14,778 bases of DNA from Gammaproteobacteria bacterium (lineage in GTDB: Bacteria; Pseudomonadota; Gammaproteobacteria; Arenicellales; Arenicellaceae): positions 1 through 14,778 of the forward strand of contig DNHK01000295.1 in assembly GCA_003485905.1 (NCBI GenBank), in the 5' to 3' direction. The notes under the pieces are model-generated. The model was not told the origin of the DNA, did no database searches, and was given only the letters and a program-made list of their open reading frames with translations. Positions 1-10,960 of the stretch are shown here, one piece after another; position 1 is the stretch's first letter; each line of letters opens with the position of its first letter. Made by a program: the position numbers and the translations under genes.

Positions 1-268
1 CATCAGCCGCAACAACCAGCAATACGGCGTCGATCCCGGTGGCACCCGATATCATGGTACGAATAAAGTCCTCATGGCCAGGGACATCGATAAAGTCCAC
101 CGTTCCAGATTCATTCTCTAAATAAGCAAATCCAAGCACAATCGACATTCCACGTCGTTTTTCCTCCTCTAATCTATCGGTATCAGCACCCGTCAAAGCT
201 TTCACTAGTGACGTCTTTCCATGATCCACATGACCCAATACACCAACTGTGAGCTGCTGTGCTGACAT
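1..268 (-). CDS. selB: SelB, selenocysteine-specific elongation factor (N-terminal part, truncated by window edge)
   Basis: SelB is the EF-Tu-like GTPase that carries Sec-tRNA(Sec) to the ribosome at UGA codons marked by a SECIS hairpin. The 89 visible codons start at ATG 266-268 and cover the start of the G domain. The P-loop GHVDHGKT is at residues 12-19. The SelB-type switch segment [13 protein letters not shown] is at 31-43, where ordinary translation factors have a different pattern, and the G3 motif DVPGHED is at 61-67. The rest of the G domain, the later beta-barrel domains and the winged-helix SECIS-binding domains lie outside the window. The gene is 61 bases downstream of selA on the same strand, the usual selAB order. 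I see no strong Shine-Dalgarno sequence before the ATG, so translation may depend on the selA transcript. Confidence 0.95.
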
Positions 269-329: not shown

Positions 330-1718
330 TCAGTCTAGATCAGTTAGCGCGCTCACAATAAAGCCAGTCTGTTCAGGCATAACCGTTCGCAAATCAATAA
401 CAAACGCATTGTCGGAAATACGCCCGATAACTGCTGGTCGATGCTTGCGCAATACTCTAGCTATCTTGTCCACTGAAAACACCTTGGATTCAATTTTTAT
501 CACGCTGGTCGCTAATTCGTTCATTGGGGCTGAACCCCCGCCAATAAAGCTAGTTCCATCCTCAATATAAGCCTCTATGGAATCCTGCTTGTTCAATTGT
601 TTAAGCAGAGCATTCGCCCTTTTCTTCACGGAAGATTTTTCTTCGCTTATCATTCTGAGAATTGGTACACGATCTATCGCTAACTCCGGAAAAAGGTAGA
701 GACCGAGCGTCGCTTCTAAAACTGCCAAAGAAATCTTATCAATACGCATGGCCCTTAAAAGCGGGTTCTTTTTAATTGCAGCAATCACTTCTGCTTTCCC
801 AACGATTATTCCCGCCTGCGGGCCTCCAAGCAATTTATCACCACTAAACATCACCGCATCTACGCCATCACGCACTATCTGCTGTACCGTGCGCTCGCCA
901 GTTACACCAAACTGGGTCAAATCAATTAAAGAACCGGATCCCAAATCATCCACCATATACAGTCCCTTGCTATGGGCAAGATCAACCAGTTCCTTCAAGG
1001 TCGGGCTTTCAGTAAACCCTACCACTTTAAAATTACTGCAATGATTTCTTAAAATAACCTTCGTATCTTCCGTAATTGCATTCTCGAAATCAGCGATTCG
1101 AGTTTTGTTAGTAGTACCAACCTCCTTCATAATCGCTCCGGTAGCGGTGATTACGTCTGGCATTCTAAATCCACCACCGATCTCAATTAACTCACCCCGC
1201 GATACCAACAACTCCTTGCCCTTACTCAGCGTATTTAAACTAACCAGTACTGCCGCAGCACAATTATTGACCACCACCGCAGCTTCGGCACCAGTTATTT
1301 TCTTCAAGAGGCCCTCAATGTGCATATATCTAGAGCCTCGCTTCCCCGAAGCCAAATTAAACTCGAGGTTTGAATACCCTAATGCTGCTTCGCGCACTGC
1401 ATCTATCGCCTCTAGCGGCATTGGTGCGCGTCCCAAGTTTGTATGCAAGATGATGCCAGTTGCATTTACAACGAGCTTTAAAGAACGCTCCCTTGCGCCA
1501 CTAATCTCGTTCTCAATTACTGTAGCAAAAGTATCATCAAAAAAATCTGGCACCACATAGTCTGGGTTTGTGAGTATCTGCTTCCGGACAAACTCCAAAT
1601 AAGATCTTAGTGACGAGACCACCTCATCCCTTGAGTACTGATCACACAGGCTGCATATAGCCTTCTGCTCTAACAAAAGCTGAGTATTAGGAATTGCTCT
1701 TAACTGCTGATTATTCAT
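330..1718 (-). CDS. selA: SelA, L-seryl-tRNA(Sec) selenium transferase
   Basis: SelA is a PLP enzyme that converts seryl-tRNA(Sec) to selenocysteyl-tRNA(Sec) with selenophosphate as selenium donor. The 462-residue length matches the bacterial family. The N-terminal domain (about 1-80) binds tRNA(Sec). The fold-type I PLP core follows, with NATGIILHTNLGRAP at 85-99, NNCAAAV at 151-157, the aspartate-containing MVDDLGSGS at 255-263 and the lysine motif SGDKLLGGPQAG at 292-303. Lys295 falls at the same number as the PLP lysine of the E. coli enzyme. The start is ATG 1716-1718 with only a poor Shine-Dalgarno sequence. It lies directly upstream of selB and is probably cotranscribed with it. A selenoprotein gene that needs this machinery ends about 1.4 kb away, on the far side of an oppositely oriented gene. 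Confidence 0.97.
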   Translation of the reverse strand: MNNQQLRAIPNTQLLLEQKAICSLCDQYSRDEVVSSLRSYLEFVRKQILTNPDYVVPDFFDDTFATVIENEISGARERSLKLVVNATGIILHTNLGRAPMPLEAIDAVREAALGYSNLEFNLASGKRGSRYMHIEGLLKKITGAEAAVVVNNCAAAVLVSLNTLSKGKELLVSRGELIEIGGGFRMPDVITATGAIMKEVGTTNKTRIADFENAITEDTKVILRNHCSNFKVVGFTESPTLKELVDLAHSKGLYMVDDLGSGSLIDLTQFGVTGERTVQQIVRDGVDAVMFSGDKLLGGPQAGIIVGKAEVIAAIKKNPLLRAMRIDKISLAVLEATLGLYLFPELAIDRVPILRMISEEKSSVKKRANALLKQLNKQDSIEAYIEDGTSFIGGGSAPMNELATSVIKIESKVFSVDKIARVLRKHRPAVIGRISDNAFVIDLRTVMPEQTGFIVSALTDLD

Positions 1719-3088: not shown

Positions 3089-3120
3089 AAAAAAAGGCCC
3101 GGAATTTTCCGGGCCTTTTT
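3089..3120. terminator. Bidirectional rho-independent terminator
   Basis: An 8-bp GC-rich stem (GGCCCGGA, 3096-3103, with TCCGGGCC, 3108-3115) closes a 4-base loop. It is flanked by seven A on the left (3089-3095) and five T on the right (3116-3120), so it can stop transcription both ways. It lies between the convergent FAA-family gene and the selenoprotein gene, 55 and 23 bases from their stop codons, measured to the nearest edge. Confidence 0.93.
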
Positions 3121-3142: not shown

Positions 3143-4393
3143 TTAAGATGCGGGCCCGCCTCTACCACCCGGGCGACCGGCCCCTCCTTCGCCACCAGGA
3201 CGTCGACGACGATTGCCGCCACCGACAATGTTTCCATCAGCGTCAGTAGTGATCGTATTACCATGACTGGTATCTCTAGCCAATGTGATCTGATAGTCCT
3301 GCTGCACGGGAATACAAAAGGTCAATTCATCATCACAGGCGAAATATTTAACCGTAAGATCAACAACGCCACCCGCTTCAGCCGAATCAACTTCAACTAA
3401 AAACTCCCGCGGATCGGCATCCGCTTCTTCTTCAGGATCCGGGCCGACAATCTTATTTGGTGTAATACTAATACCGTCTGGTGTCGAAATCTCAAACTCT
3501 AGAGGCGGAGCTTCGTTGTTCCAGTGAACACGATATAATGGATCCAAGTGAAAGCCTATATACATTATGCCTTTGCCTGTCTCATACAACTCTTGAGAGC
3601 CTTCAGCACGCAGCTTGGTATAGAAAGGAACTTTTGCCGTCTCTTCGTTTGCAACCGTTTCCATCGGCAAAAAGCGACCTTCTGGCTTCACAACCCGCGG
3701 CACAATACCTTTAGCGACCGTGCCAATCACTGGTTGAGTCGGCAGGTTCAAGTCTGCAATTTGAGTTGGGTTTTCTACCGCTCCGACTGCGGCGGCTATA
3801 TCTACCCTGAGTGCGTCTGGGTCACTCCATGAACGTGCCGCAAGTACGACACCATCAGGGCCGACTAAAATCTCACTATTCGGCGTCTCACCACTTGCTT
3901 GGTGGTAAGTATTATCCATAGTGTCAGAAAGCCACGTGATACTGCTTCCCAATCTACGTTTTGCCTCTTCGATATGCATTAAGCGTTCTTTGAGGTTAAT
4001 TGGACTCACATAACCCTGAAATTCGGGATGCGCCAATGGCTTGTATATATAGTAGAAATTTACCTTATCTTCGTAATCAAGTTTGACAGTCTCCATACTG
4101 GGGACTTTGCGAATAAAAGGTGGTCAAGTAAGGCACCCTAAGACAAACACGGAATAATTGTCTTTGCTAAGGTTGCGTATGCTAACCGAACTACCTGTAT
4201 CGTCTAATATAGTCAGATCAGGCACCATATCTCCGACTTTAGGGCCTAGTTCAACAAAACGGGGAATATCTCCGGAGGGCCCGCCTCTGCCACCCTGCGC
4301 CTGAACCGCACTCAATGGCAGCATTACCGCTACCCCGAGCACAATCGCAGTACTGGCGACCTTCCTCGCTAAACTACTTCGTTGCTTCGTCAT
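3143..4393 (-). CDS. Secreted deiodinase-like selenoprotein with DsbD-alpha-like C-terminal domain (in-frame UGA = Sec90)
   Basis: This is one reading frame of 416 residues if TGA 4124-4126 is read as selenocysteine. An automatic caller would split it into 4124..4393 and 3143..4096, which are in the same frame with nine sense codons between the TGA and the second ATG. The start is ATG 4391-4393 with AAGGAAA about 9 bases upstream. Residues 11-33 are a signal peptide and mature positions 34-40 are Gly/Arg-rich. Residues 50-200 form a thioredoxin-like domain. Its GCLTUPPF (86-93) matches the iodothyronine deiodinase active site (GSCTUPPF type), giving a Cys87-x-x-Sec90 redox pair. YIYKPLAHPEFQGY (116-129, His122) and WLSDTMDN (154-161) match the deiodinase EAHPSDGW and LDTMAN segments. 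Residues about 260-370 resemble the DsbD alpha domain, with Cys353 and Cys360 in YFACDDELTFC. The tail (from 394) is Arg/Gly-rich. The product is probably a periplasmic oxidoreductase or reductive dehalogenase. Its substrate cannot be inferred. Confidence 0.9.
4088..4126 (-). promoter_or_regulatory. UGA Sec codon with bacterial-type SECIS hairpin
   Basis: In the mRNA the UGA (4124-4126) is followed, after 17 bases, by a hairpin inside the coding sequence. AGUC (4103-4106) pairs with GACU (4088-4091). A single C.A mismatch follows, then CC (4100-4101) pairs with GG (4093-4094). The loop is AGUAU (4095-4099). The loop has a G at its second position followed by U, and it begins 24 bases after the UGA. 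Both fit the known bacterial SECIS pattern, a short stem with G/U in the apical loop about 16-37 bases downstream. The stem is modest in length. The pairing was drawn by eye and no folding energy was calculated. Confidence 0.75.
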
Positions 4394-4420
4394 AATATGT
4401 TTTCCTTAATAAAGTGAAAA

Positions 4421-4521: not shown

Positions 4522-6045
4522 TTAATCTGGTACTACCAGTTCAGCTAATCTTGCTTTCAAATCTTCGTGACTCTGAATAGCTTCCTCGGTCAATGATGCA
4601 TCCAACAAGTTCTGCGTTTCATACGGATCTTCAACAAGATCGAAAAGTTCTTCAGTATCGTTACCAAAGTCCCGCACCAACTTATATCGCTCGGTACGAA
4701 TCGCACGCTCGTCTGAGTTGCCGTTGCGCGTTGCACCAAAATGATCCGCGTAGTTAAAGTCTCTTAAGCTAGACCCACCAGAGAGGATGGGTACCATGCT
4801 AACTGAATCTATAACGACGCCCTCAGGCAGGGTGCTTGATGCGTTGGACCCAGCCAATTCCAGTATAGTCGCAAACATATCTACGGAGTTGGCGAGCTCG
4901 GTGTTGGAACCTCGTTCAAAACCTGGGCCCTTTACAATTAGCGGCACATTGACACCACCTTGATACACCGTTCCTTTGGCTCGTGCTCGATCGAACGGCG
5001 CCTTAGCGACATTACCAGGAGTACCATTATCACCCATAAAAATAACATGAGTATTCGCTAGTACCTCATCACCAATGTTTTCTAATAGACGACCGATTTC
5101 GGTATCCATAGCTTCAATCATCGCATTGTAATAATCGTGCAAATCACCATTACTACCATCCGCCTTCAACGCGAGCGACGCTTCACTCTTCAAAAGCTCT
5201 GCTGGTGGTAATTGAATTGGCGTATGTGGGGCATTAAACGCCACCCATAAGAACCACGGTTCGTCGCCGCGATCATTCAGCCATGCAATTCCATCATCAA
5301 TAATGTCAGTAGTCGCATAACCTGTCTTGCCAACCGGGTCGGCACCATCAACCACCTTCGACCAACCATAATAATTTTCAACCGCAGCCTTTAAACCGCC
5401 AGAATAATAATCAAACCCAACACGATTTGGGTGTCCTAGAGCACCGTTCTCATCATTCGCTAAATGCCACTTACCAACAGCAGCGGTCGAGTAACTTGCA
5501 TCCTCATCAAGCTTCAGCGCTTGCAGCATAGTCCAAGCATCAGGCCGCAGACCAGGTCGGCCAGACCGTCCACCCTGATTCGCCTGTCTATTACCGGCAT
5601 TCGGACGTCTTTGCCCCTCGCCTCCTACTTCCCCTCTCCGGTTCGCCGCCCCGGCTCCTGGACCTCCACCACCCAAATCGGGATAAGCGGCATTGGCTTC
5701 AGGTACTACCCAATCAATATTAGTCGGCGTTCCTGCCGGTGTACCTACTCCGTTTCGAAACCCAAATTGACCTGTGAGCAGCGTTGCTCGGGTCGGAGAG
5801 CAGACGGGTTGTGCCCAGAACCTATCGAATCTAACTCCTTCTTCGCATAAACGATCAATATTTGGTGTATGTGCAGTGTCTCCACCTACCCCATAGCAAT
5901 TAAGCGTTTCGACAGCCATATCATCGCCAATTAACAATAAAAAGTTGGGGGGCGCATCATTTTGAGTACTGGCAAGTTTTACTGCCAATACAATTATTGT
6001 AGTAACAATAAACAGAAAGATAGAGCGTTGATTAGCGATTTTCAT
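4522..6045 (-). CDS. Secreted formylglycine-dependent sulfatase with Arg/Gly-rich insert
   Basis: This is a type I sulfatase, hydrolysing sulfate esters in the periplasm or outside the cell. The start chosen is ATG 6043-6045. A GTG at 6055-6057 in the same frame would add four residues, and neither has a clear ribosome site. Numbered from the ATG (507 residues), a hydrophobic signal or anchor segment spans about 8-27. The metal ligands are Asp41-Asp42 (GDDM). CSPTRATLLTG begins at Cys82, the cysteine oxidised to formylglycine. GKWHLA has Lys192 and His194, NAPHTP follows, and GDNG contains Asp339-Asn340. Between the active-site helix and GKWHL lies a Gly/Arg/Asn-rich insert (about 124-167) that ordinary sulfatases lack. 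It resembles the tail of the neighbouring selenoprotein. The C-terminal LFDLVEDPYETQNLL is typical of the family. The sulfated substrate cannot be told from the sequence. Confidence 0.93.
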   Translation of the reverse strand: MKIANQRSIFLFIVTTIIVLAVKLASTQNDAPPNFLLLIGDDMAVETLNCYGVGGDTAHTPNIDRLCEEGVRFDRFWAQPVCSPTRATLLTGQFGFRNGVGTPAGTPTNIDWVVPEANAAYPDLGGGGPGAGAANRRGEVGGEGQRRPNAGNRQANQGGRSGRPGLRPDAWTMLQALKLDEDASYSTAAVGKWHLANDENGALGHPNRVGFDYYSGGLKAAVENYYGWSKVVDGADPVGKTGYATTDIIDDGIAWLNDRGDEPWFLWVAFNAPHTPIQLPPAELLKSEASLALKADGSNGDLHDYYNAMIEAMDTEIGRLLENIGDEVLANTHVIFMGDNGTPGNVAKAPFDRARAKGTVYQGGVNVPLIVKGPGFERGSNTELANSVDMFATILELAGSNASSTLPEGVVIDSVSMVPILSGGSSLRDFNYADHFGATRNGNSDERAIRTERYKLVRDFGNDTEELFDLVEDPYETQNLLDASLTEEAIQSHEDLKARLAELVVPD

Positions 6046-6134
6046 AGGGTATGCCACAGATATTCGATATATTTACCATTAAACCATAATTCTGATCTGT
6101 AAAGGACATTAACGTTTCAGCAAATGCGCAGGCA

Positions 6135-6214: not shown

Positions 6215-6748
6215 TTAATTTAACCCGACTTGCCAAATAGAGCGTTCGGCATCAACTGATTCGCAATTCTGGATGCTAAGCACTCGCCAAATATGGCTGG
6301 GACCAGAAGCAGCAGTGCTTTCAGTACCTGCAGCAAGGCATAAATTTGTCTCACCTAGCTTAATTTGACCGTTGGTTTCTAAACTCATTGCCTGCAAGGG
6401 TGTATCAGTACAAGTCCTAGCAATAATTGAAACGCCGGCCAAGGGTTCTCCGGATGAAACAGCCGCTTGTAAACATCGATCCGTATCGCCGACAGTAATC
6501 TTGCCATCGATAACCGTAAATAATTGATCGGCAGGTTCTGCACCCTTACAGGTGTGAGCCTGCAGAGGATCCTCCAACTTCAAATGATCCCCCCACCCAG
6601 ATAGGTCTAGACAGTAAAATTCGGGCTCATCAAGAGGATCAACTAACCTTACTAAATCTCCGTTCGCGGCTTGGACTGGAACCGAAGCAAGTGACATCAC
6701 AAAAACACTAACTAAAAACTGTACCCCAAAAACTCTAAAATCTTTCAT
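6215..6748 (-). CDS. Secreted ricin-type beta-trefoil (lectin-like) protein
   Basis: This 177-residue protein has a signal peptide (residues 1-28, ending VQA-A) followed by one beta-trefoil. Three internal repeats can be seen, each opening with Cys-Leu and closing with a second Cys: Cys46/Cys67, Cys92/Cys113 and Cys137/Cys162. Each is followed by the family's Q-x-W/F-type strand (DQLFTV, LQAMSL, SIWQV). The regular spacing suggests one disulfide per lobe. Ricin-B domains usually bind galactose or other sugars, but no catalytic domain is attached here, so it may be a free sugar-binding or scaffold protein. The start ATG 6746-6748 is preceded by GAGGAG at about 10 bases. It has its own terminator and is divergent from the RidA-family gene. 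Carbohydrate binding is inferred from the fold only. Confidence 0.75.
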   Translation of the reverse strand: MKDFRVFGVQFLVSVFVMSLASVPVQAANGDLVRLVDPLDEPEFYCLDLSGWGDHLKLEDPLQAHTCKGAEPADQLFTVIDGKITVGDTDRCLQAAVSSGEPLAGVSIIARTCTDTPLQAMSLETNGQIKLGETNLCLAAGTESTAASGPSHIWRVLSIQNCESVDAERSIWQVGLN

Positions 6749-9463: not shown

Positions 9464-10960
9464 ATGAAAACAGATCACTACTCTACTTTTATTAAGAATC
9501 AATTATCTCTTTTAGCGTTTTTACCTTTAATTTTTGTAAGTGTTGTTAAGGGTGCTGGTGATACCCCTAACGTAGTATTTATCATCGCCGACGATCTAGG
9601 TTTTAATGATGTTGGGTACAACGGTAGTGAAATAAGGACACCCAGGCTCGACGCCATGGCGAATGAGGGTCTACAACTGGACCGCTTTTACGCACATCCA
9701 GTATGCAGCCCTACTCGTGCCGCATTGATGACAGGACAATCACCTACCCGGCTAGGCGTCATCAGGCCAATTTCAAAAATTGAAAAGAAAGGTCTGCCTC
9801 TCGATCGAACAATACTCCCGCAATTCTTTTCCGAGGCTGGGTATCAAACATTGATGGTTGGCAAATGGCATTTGGGGCATGCCCGCACCGAATACTTACC
9901 AACCTCTCGTGGCTTTGAGCATTTCTATGGGCACGTTACAGGCGGTATAGGCTTCTGGGATAAGGTTCACGGCGGTGGTTATGATTGGCAACGAAATGGT
10001 ACTACCGTGCGAGAAGACGGTTACACCACGCATTTAATTGCCGACGAAGCAGTGCAATTAATTGAAGATCGAGATACTGCTCGTCCGCTATTTTTATATG
10101 CTGCCTTTAATGCGCCTCATCTACCCAACGAAGCGCCTGAAGAAACAATCAACAGCTATCCTGATATAGAAAATATTAATCGTCGCACTCATGCAGCCAT
10201 GGTTACTGAGTTAGACACCGCCGTTGGTCGAATTATTGATGCGCTTGGTGCCGCGGACATGCTAGATAACACGATAGTCTGGTTTATTAGCGACAACGGT
10301 GGCCTAATCCCGGGTCTATATAGTGCCCGAACAGCAAATTTATTGGACAGGGACGGCAATCCGCTTTTACCTGATAGCCCTAAACCAGAAAAATTCATTG
10401 AATTTATAAACATAAATAACACTCTGGGAACCAGCAACAATCATCCCTATAAGAAAGGAAAATCTTTTGCTTATGAAGGTGGAATACACGTACCCGCAAT
10501 AATTTGGTGGCCAGAGCAATATCAAGCCAGACGCGTCACCGACATGATAACCGTCGAAGACATCCTGCCAACTTTACTGAGCATCGCTGGAATACCCAAT
10601 CATGTTAATCAACAATTTGACGGTGCCGATCAGTCAAACGTGCTCACACAAAACAGGCAGACCAATAGACCGGATTTTCATGTTCGATCGTTTGATGGCA
10701 GCACGATAATACGTAACCCATGGAAGCTTACTGTACCCCCCAGAGGCACTCCAAAACTCTATAATCTTGAAGACGACCCGACAGAAGAGATGGAGATTGC
10801 GGATAATAACGCTGATATAGTGCAAACCTTATTAGCGGCGATAGAAGCCTTTCCGAAGGGCAAACTTATTGGGCCTCCTGCCCATGAAGCTATGTGGGAC
10901 CCGGATTTTTTTGGTGGCGAAGAAGATCGTGCGCCATGGGCAGACGTGGTAGACAAATAA
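9464..10960 (+). CDS. Secreted formylglycine-dependent arylsulfatase-type sulfatase
   Basis: This 498-residue type I sulfatase has a signal peptide at about 1-31 (charged start, then LSLLAFLPLIFVSVV, ending at GAG). The metal ligands are Asp43-Asp44 (ADDLGFNDVGYNG). CSPTRAALMTG begins at Cys81, the formylglycine cysteine. GKWHLGH contains Lys134 and His136, NAPHLP contains His219, and SDNGG contains Asp277-Asn278. KGKSFAYEGGIHVPAIIWWP is the conserved lysine and Gly-Gly segment. The C-terminal KLYNLEDDPTEEMEIADN is typical of arylsulfatases A/B and N-acetylgalactosamine sulfatases. Unlike the other sulfatase in the window it has no Arg/Gly-rich insert. The ATG has only a weak GAGA ribosome site. 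A hydrolase gene follows 105 bases later on the same strand, so the two may be cotranscribed. The substrate is unknown. Confidence 0.95.
   Translation: MKTDHYSTFIKNQLSLLAFLPLIFVSVVKGAGDTPNVVFIIADDLGFNDVGYNGSEIRTPRLDAMANEGLQLDRFYAHPVCSPTRAALMTGQSPTRLGVIRPISKIEKKGLPLDRTILPQFFSEAGYQTLMVGKWHLGHARTEYLPTSRGFEHFYGHVTGGIGFWDKVHGGGYDWQRNGTTVREDGYTTHLIADEAVQLIEDRDTARPLFLYAAFNAPHLPNEAPEETINSYPDIENINRRTHAAMVTELDTAVGRIIDALGAADMLDNTIVWFISDNGGLIPGLYSARTANLLDRDGNPLLPDSPKPEKFIEFININNTLGTSNNHPYKKGKSFAYEGGIHVPAIIWWPEQYQARRVTDMITVEDILPTLLSIAGIPNHVNQQFDGADQSNVLTQNRQTNRPDFHVRSFDGSTIIRNPWKLTVPPRGTPKLYNLEDDPTEEMEIADNNADIVQTLLAAIEAFPKGKLIGPPAHEAMWDPDFFGGEEDRAPWADVVDK

Follow-up and report, generated by a model that had tools for sequence, protein, structure and literature searches.

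Deiodinase-like selenoproteins have been described in bacteria before. They were reported from the Sargasso Sea in 2005, with a function that is probably different and perhaps redox (PMC1088965), and a 2026 review counts 119 selenoprotein families or subfamilies and gives the deiodinase-like motif as UxxC (PMC13188914). The gene considered here lies on the reverse strand of a 14,778-nucleotide stretch of contig DNHK01000295.1 (assembly GCA_003485905.1; the whole stretch is hereafter called the window) from a gammaproteobacterium of the family Arenicellaceae, where an in-frame TGA makes it look split in two. It is almost certainly a single gene for one exported, selenium-containing redox enzyme. 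Comparison with relatives and structure prediction support a reading in which the UGA specifies selenocysteine (Sec), within a deiodinase-like thioredoxin domain that follows a signal-peptide-like start.

Open reading frames (ORFs) were called with translation table 11, and the two at issue share one frame of the minus strand, at 4124-4393 and 3143-4096, the sole interruption being the TGA at 4124-4126. Reading this UGA, codon 90, as Sec joins them into one gene of 416 codons plus a stop (3143..4393, minus strand). A first-pass annotation made from the letters of the DNA had proposed just this, and its coordinates, its frame, the 416 residues, Sec at position 90, the surrounding GCLTUPPF, His122 and the DTMDN at residues 157-161 are all as it claimed. 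The N-terminal 32 residues, ending ...LPLSAVQA (4298..4393, read by eye), resemble a signal peptide, and the predicted structure has a predicted local distance difference test score below 50 over residues 1-39. Residues 44-205 (3779..4264) form a thioredoxin/deiodinase-like domain according to family scan and predicted structure, with the CxxU redox pair C87-L-T-U90 at 4124..4135.

A profile search of a genome collection, led by the window protein, yielded 38 related loci, and 29 of them have TGA at the site codon, followed by PPF in 28 and by PPY in L005. Eight have Cys (TGC or TGT), always within GCLTCPIF, and the remaining locus, L038, starts after the site. The recurrence of TGA speaks against a sequencing error in the window, and the Cys homologs that the first-pass annotation had advised looking for are thus present, both here and among database relatives. 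The latter were 239 listed proteins (the window protein excluded), comprising the best 120 of 683 and the best 120 of 404 matches with one shared; the site is visible in 73, as Cys in 72 and as Ser in one (P0094). It is not shown in the other 166, of which 148 have K-x-LAH within their first 30 residues. To judge from this motif, the annotated starts of these 148 lie just past the UGA, so misannotation affects a large part of the family.

A quick maximum-likelihood tree was built from 111 rows that show the site and was midpoint-rooted for drawing only. It gathers the 30 Sec rows and the Ser row into a single group with an SH-like approximate likelihood ratio support of 100, outside which lie the 80 Cys rows; on this tree a single change between Sec and Cys suffices. 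The Ser copy, GCLTSPPF, falls within that group at the end of a long branch and has probably lost the active selenol secondarily. UGA-form copies occur under Pseudomonadota, Acidobacteriota, Planctomycetota, Verrucomicrobiota and Poribacteria titles. The closest relative, L001, is 89% identical and belongs to an Arenicellaceae metagenome-assembled genome (MAG), G001; its copy has an in-frame TAG at codon 27 (L001:10079), either an assembly error or a broken gene. In a search of 61 genomes related to G001, the full-length gene was confined to G001 itself, and shorter matches, to the first half of the gene, turned up in five others; the family is thus patchily distributed in this group. A plasmid search gave one distant match, a Mycolicibacterium 'deiodinase-like protein' with 26% identity over 35% of the query.

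An uninterrupted frame on either side of a UGA was not accepted as evidence in itself, there being 15 UGAs in the window with 30 open codons on both sides. Eleven of these match L001, and the codon-90 UGA does so best (91.8% identity, E 1e-35, UGA kept); among the other ten some also face a stop, but at 49-82% identity. Nonsynonymous (dN) and synonymous (dS) divergence between the window and L001 gives dN/dS values of 0.054/0.62 over residues 48-89, 0.058/0.71 over residues 91-205 and 0.039/0.90 over residues 206-375. In eight further pairs, one of them Cys-form, dN is likewise below dS in all three parts; the ratio before the UGA, resting on only 40-42 codons, lies between 0 and 0.39, with the maximum in L002-L003 (0.132/0.34). 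The gene has two of the marks by which bacterial selenoproteins are recognized: homology together with purifying selection on either side of the UGA, and homologs with Cys at the site.

The presence of Sec-decoding genes is another. Adjoining the gene in the window are selA, for L-seryl-tRNA(Sec) selenium transferase (330..1718, minus strand; TIGR00474 551 bits against a cut-off of 268), and the start of selB, which runs off the window (2..268, minus strand); being incomplete, it scores 123 bits over 89 residues with TIGR00475, short of the cut-off of 242 set for the whole protein. A scan of the window found no Rfam matches or tRNAs. In G001, the gene, selA, selB, tRNA-Sec and selD lie on one contig within 8 kb, contrary to the concern, raised in the first-pass annotation, that selC and selD might be absent. 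We counted tRNA-Sec at scores of at least 60 bits, our own threshold, as matches of 47-52 bits occur several per genome and resemble other tRNAs. Across the 28 UGA-form genomes selA is over cut-off in 23, selB in 25 and tRNA-Sec at this threshold in 24, and at least one of the three is found in 26; the two misses, G005 and G010, are both MAGs. By comparison, Sec-decoding genes are present in one of eight Cys-form genomes (G032; Fisher p 3e-5), with G037 left out of these counts as its site is not visible. At the Rfam cut-off of 47 bits tRNA-Sec is found in 27 of 37 genomes (26 of 28 UGA-form, adding G003 and G005, plus G032), and 5 of 14 control genomes also pass. When seven genomes were checked for selD, it was over cut-off in G001, G005, G023, G026 and G032 and not in G010 or G034.

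Of 30 UGA copies, 9 (the window, L001, L002, L003, L008, L009, L010, L015 and L017), which represent three arrangements and two phyla, have the start of selA less than 3 kb from the site, and none of eight Cys copies does; flanks are shorter than 3 kb at several loci of both forms alike. The single contig of L002 carries two selA-selB-tRNA-Sec sets, flanking the gene on both sides. The comparison (TGA in 29 of 38 loci, Cys in 8, and Sec-decoding genes) bears out the reading of the UGA as Sec within one gene, and we regard decoding of codon 90 by the adjoining Sec system as close to certain on these genomic grounds.

Two other readings of the codon have to be weighed. If the UGA were a genuine stop, the upper piece would encode a shortened protein or be a pseudogene, and the lower frame of 317 residues would be a separate gene, a division that matches the many database gene calls beginning past the UGA (the 148 described above). 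However, such starts are the usual behavior of gene callers at a UGA, and homologs do not end there, Cys-form relatives continuing through the site. Moreover, the upper piece alone holds the export signal and the beginning of the thioredoxin fold, and dN is below dS on both sides, which together leave a true stop very improbable. Reassignment of UGA to an amino acid other than Sec would fit equally with a frame that is open under whatever sense reading is chosen. Yet UGA-form members in L012, L014, L020, L025, L028 and L029 end at an in-frame TGA, so UGA still stops in those loci, and this, the presence of Sec-decoding genes and the Cys of relatives at the position make reassignment extraordinarily unlikely.

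Bacterial decoding of UGA as Sec draws attention to RNA structure just 3′ of the codon, the selenocysteine insertion sequence (SECIS). The 30 UGA rows align without gaps. Their columns 21-27/33-39 make up a 7-pair hairpin whose pairs are present in 83.3% of cells; slid versions reach 28-54%, and the eight Cys rows 35.7%. In the window it is AGUCCCC-AGUAU-GGAGACU (4088..4106, minus strand). The model for bacterial SECIS elements has a G in the first two loop positions, a loop 16-37 nucleotides past the UGA and a minimum free energy of no more than -7.5 kcal/mol, with a published loop pattern of N1-G-[G/U]-N-N2 in which N1 and N2 pair (PMC13188914). The window loop, AGUAU, fits this pattern and is 24 nucleotides from the UGA, inside the range, and the G is invariant at column 29. 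Several observations weigh against a SECIS: the window hairpin has an energy of -7.0 (45 nucleotides), just short of the limit, and gives no stability signal against shuffles (z -0.15; -0.96); three of the seven stem pairs are invariant and covariation amounts to one pair and three cells; 24 of 29 distinct rows have a C.A mismatch in the stem; and three of eight UGA rows folded prefer another structure. The hairpin, absent from Cys forms, is thus best termed weakly SECIS-like.

The first domain has the deiodinase variant of the thioredoxin fold in its predicted structure, and the closest structural alignments are with DIO2 and DIO3 (PDB 9h48, 4tr3), not peroxiredoxins, in agreement with the comparison to the Dio3 catalytic domain suggested in the first-pass annotation. 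A search against protein families does match T4_deiodinase (PF00837), yet at 20 bits the window protein is under the gathering cut-off of 27 and is therefore better called deiodinase-like than counted as a member of that family; the Cys-form relatives P0186 (29.7 bits) and P0173 (27.0) reach the cut-off. At E <= 1, T4_deiodinase matches 36 of 53 rows, level with Redoxin (36) and AhpC/TSA (35), and the only NCBIfam model listed, NF038285 (deiodinase family protein), covers residues 49-166 at 46 bits against a cut-off of 250. The protein has T-U-PPF, AHP and DTMxN in common with DIO2 and DIO3, whereas deiodinases have SxTU, with Ser three before Sec, in place of CxxU, and YIEEAHPSDGW where the window protein reads YKPLAHPE, the Glu before AH being replaced by Leu. 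A deiodinase-like domain with counterparts of the LDTMAN and EAHPSDGW segments had been claimed, and the fold, AHP and DTMxN stand; the active site, however, is CxxU and not of the GSCTUPPF type, and in place of the full EAHPSDGW segment the window protein reads LAHPEFQGY. Separate deiodinase-like genes over the Pfam cut-off occur in 4 of 12 genomes checked. One deiodinase-like frame, L045, which shares its Poribacteria genome with locus L024, reads GSFTUPPF across an in-frame UGA (site near nucleotide 1600, reverse strand) and has a second in-frame UGA near its start (KTSUV).

Behind this domain lies another, which the first-pass annotation missed in describing a periplasmic selenoenzyme. Residues 240-375 (3269..3676, minus strand) are predicted to form a beta sandwich resembling DsbD_N. 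Within it Y350, A352, C353 and C360 are invariant in 27 aligned domain pieces; in the full set every one of the 38 rows has C353 and all but one have C360, the exception being L011, where the match ends at residue 358. Comparison thus indicates one gene with a predicted Sec at 90 and two conserved redox pairs, the second being C353-x6-C360 (3314..3337). DsbD_N (PF11412) is matched at E <= 1 by 11 of 53 rows and 10 of 27 domain pieces, and relative P0222 (26.7 bits) passes the gathering cut-off of 25 bits. A comparison profile was built from six DsbD_N domains, all over the Pfam cut-off, five from DsbD-type proteins in five genomes and one from a fusion protein at L003; against it the second domain scores a probability of 85.7% with both Cys in register, and two controls score 0.2%. 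A profile of the second domain found no matches up to E 10 among PDB sequences. Kinship with DsbD_N is made less secure by the window piece alone matching no Pfam family and by a fold search that was not specific, and we consider it likely from the profile comparison. Genes with DsbD_TM are present in all five genomes checked, yet also in 10 of 14 controls.

The L003 protein just mentioned (L003:2802-3965, plus strand) lies 1.3 kb downstream of the copy at that locus; it joins AhpC/TSA to DsbD_N, contains an in-frame UGA as well (ADWUPYC), and its DsbD_N scores 35.9 bits on the domain alone. It hints that fusion to DsbD_N extends to several selenocysteine thioredoxin folds. A TlpA/ResA-like protein at L017:2790-4289 (plus strand) also has an in-frame UGA (ASWUAGC; NF041054 66 bits against a cut-off of 300), and its C-terminus, HWNNE...YYVCEDADGQC, looks like the second domain of the window protein. 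EF-hands share the polypeptide in L016 and L027, where they precede the thioredoxin domain, and in many listed database relatives.

The best overall explanation, which we think probably correct, is that of an exported selenoprotein whose CxxU pair is re-reduced through its fused DsbD_N-like relay domain. A single selenoprotein would be made and, we infer, exported, after which Cys87 and Sec90 of the deiodinase-like thioredoxin domain would act as a selenol/thiol pair; Sec would attack an oxidized substrate and Cys87 would resolve the intermediate as a selenenylsulfide. The CxxU motif and the fold make such chemistry quite likely. The C-terminal domain would then reduce the selenenylsulfide through Cys353 and Cys360, with electrons from a DsbD-type membrane protein, and the enzyme would thereby carry its own electron-relay domain; the domain similarity and the conserved Cys pair tip the balance slightly toward this relay. 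As to substrates, oxidized thiols or hydroperoxides outside the cytoplasm are our leading guess, and a tentative one.

A more specific proposal is that of a selenol peroxidase, in which CxxU would reduce hydroperoxides in the manner of a two-Cys peroxiredoxin and be reduced in turn by the second domain. The level matches to Redoxin, AhpC/TSA and T4_deiodinase agree with it, as do the AhpC/TSA-DsbD_N fusion beside the L003 copy and genes for MsrP (methionine sulfoxide reductase; 436-443 bits) 2.1-2.8 kb past the site in four Cys-form loci (L032, L035, L036 and L037), with MsrQ-like genes, below cut-off, in the two scanned (L036 and L037). However, deiodinases rather than peroxiredoxins give the best structural alignment, and the MsrP neighbors are confined to Opitutales and may be plain synteny; a peroxidase seems possible but unlikely. 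It is also conceivable that the protein is an extracytoplasmic reductive dehalogenase applying deiodinase chemistry to halogenated organics, given the structural proximity of DIO2 and DIO3 and the three motifs in common. Against this are the Ser (not Cys) three before Sec and the Glu (not Leu) before AH in deiodinases, the separate deiodinase-like genes in some genomes, and the lack of any known dehalogenase among the minority of neighbors that were annotated (window ORFs and ten ORFs elsewhere), and we think such a role decidedly improbable. A combined form, in which the DsbD_N-like domain re-reduces a CxxU deiodinase-fold site that dehalogenates natural organohalogens outside the cytoplasm, is a long shot; if true, animal deiodinases would share ancestry with bacterial exported dehalogenases bearing a built-in reductant.

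The neighbors help little in inferring the substrate of the exported selenoprotein. Upstream of its ATG (4391-4393) a Shine-Dalgarno-like AAGGA, read by eye, lies 9 nucleotides 5′ (4403..4407, minus strand), and a terminator-like palindrome with a T run, also read by eye and unlisted by a hairpin scan demanding a loop of 3-8, is 3′ of the gene (3089..3120, minus strand). Two sulfatases with PVCSPTR sites are at 4522-6057 (minus strand) and 9464-10960 (plus strand). The ORF cluster that holds them recurs near 11 of the 38 copies and faces the gene in several Bryobacterales loci; the one other member scanned, in L018, is a sulfatase. A ricin-B-type beta-trefoil lectin domain protein is encoded at 6215-6748 (minus strand), and a very similar ORF occupies the same place in L001.

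How, then, does this family compare with those already known? It resembles the bacterial deiodinase-like selenoproteins in being bacterial, deiodinase-like and present in Sec and Cys forms, and it is set apart from the 2005 family and that of MFL2763324.1, the table representative, by motif alone. The UxxC motif (PMC13188914) is not found: of the 38 rows, 37 have Phe at residue 93 and L005 has Tyr. Parts 1 and 2 of 3 of table section 7 of that review have no row pairing PF00837 with CxxU or DsbD_N, the nearest idea in the table being the rhodanese/DsbD fusion-like selenoprotein TsoB, and we found no CxxU deiodinase-like/DsbD_N family in print among open-licence PMC papers. The L045 example (GSFTUPPF...EAHPMDGW, a 195-residue frame) differs in having no Cys three before Sec and in being too short for a second domain. 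DsbD_N itself has a redox Cys pair in register with that of the window protein, whose spacing is C-x6-C in the window and C-x4-C in some rows, but in DsbD it precedes the DsbD membrane part, whereas here it sits behind the selenocysteine domain. Relative to deiodinases 2 and 3, the window protein adds both a signal-peptide-like start and the second domain. Animal deiodinases probably depend on a reductant from outside, and none is known to have been firmly named; a fold with its own CxxU pair and a fused DsbD_N-like domain would make the electron route of a deiodinase fold directly testable in bacteria.
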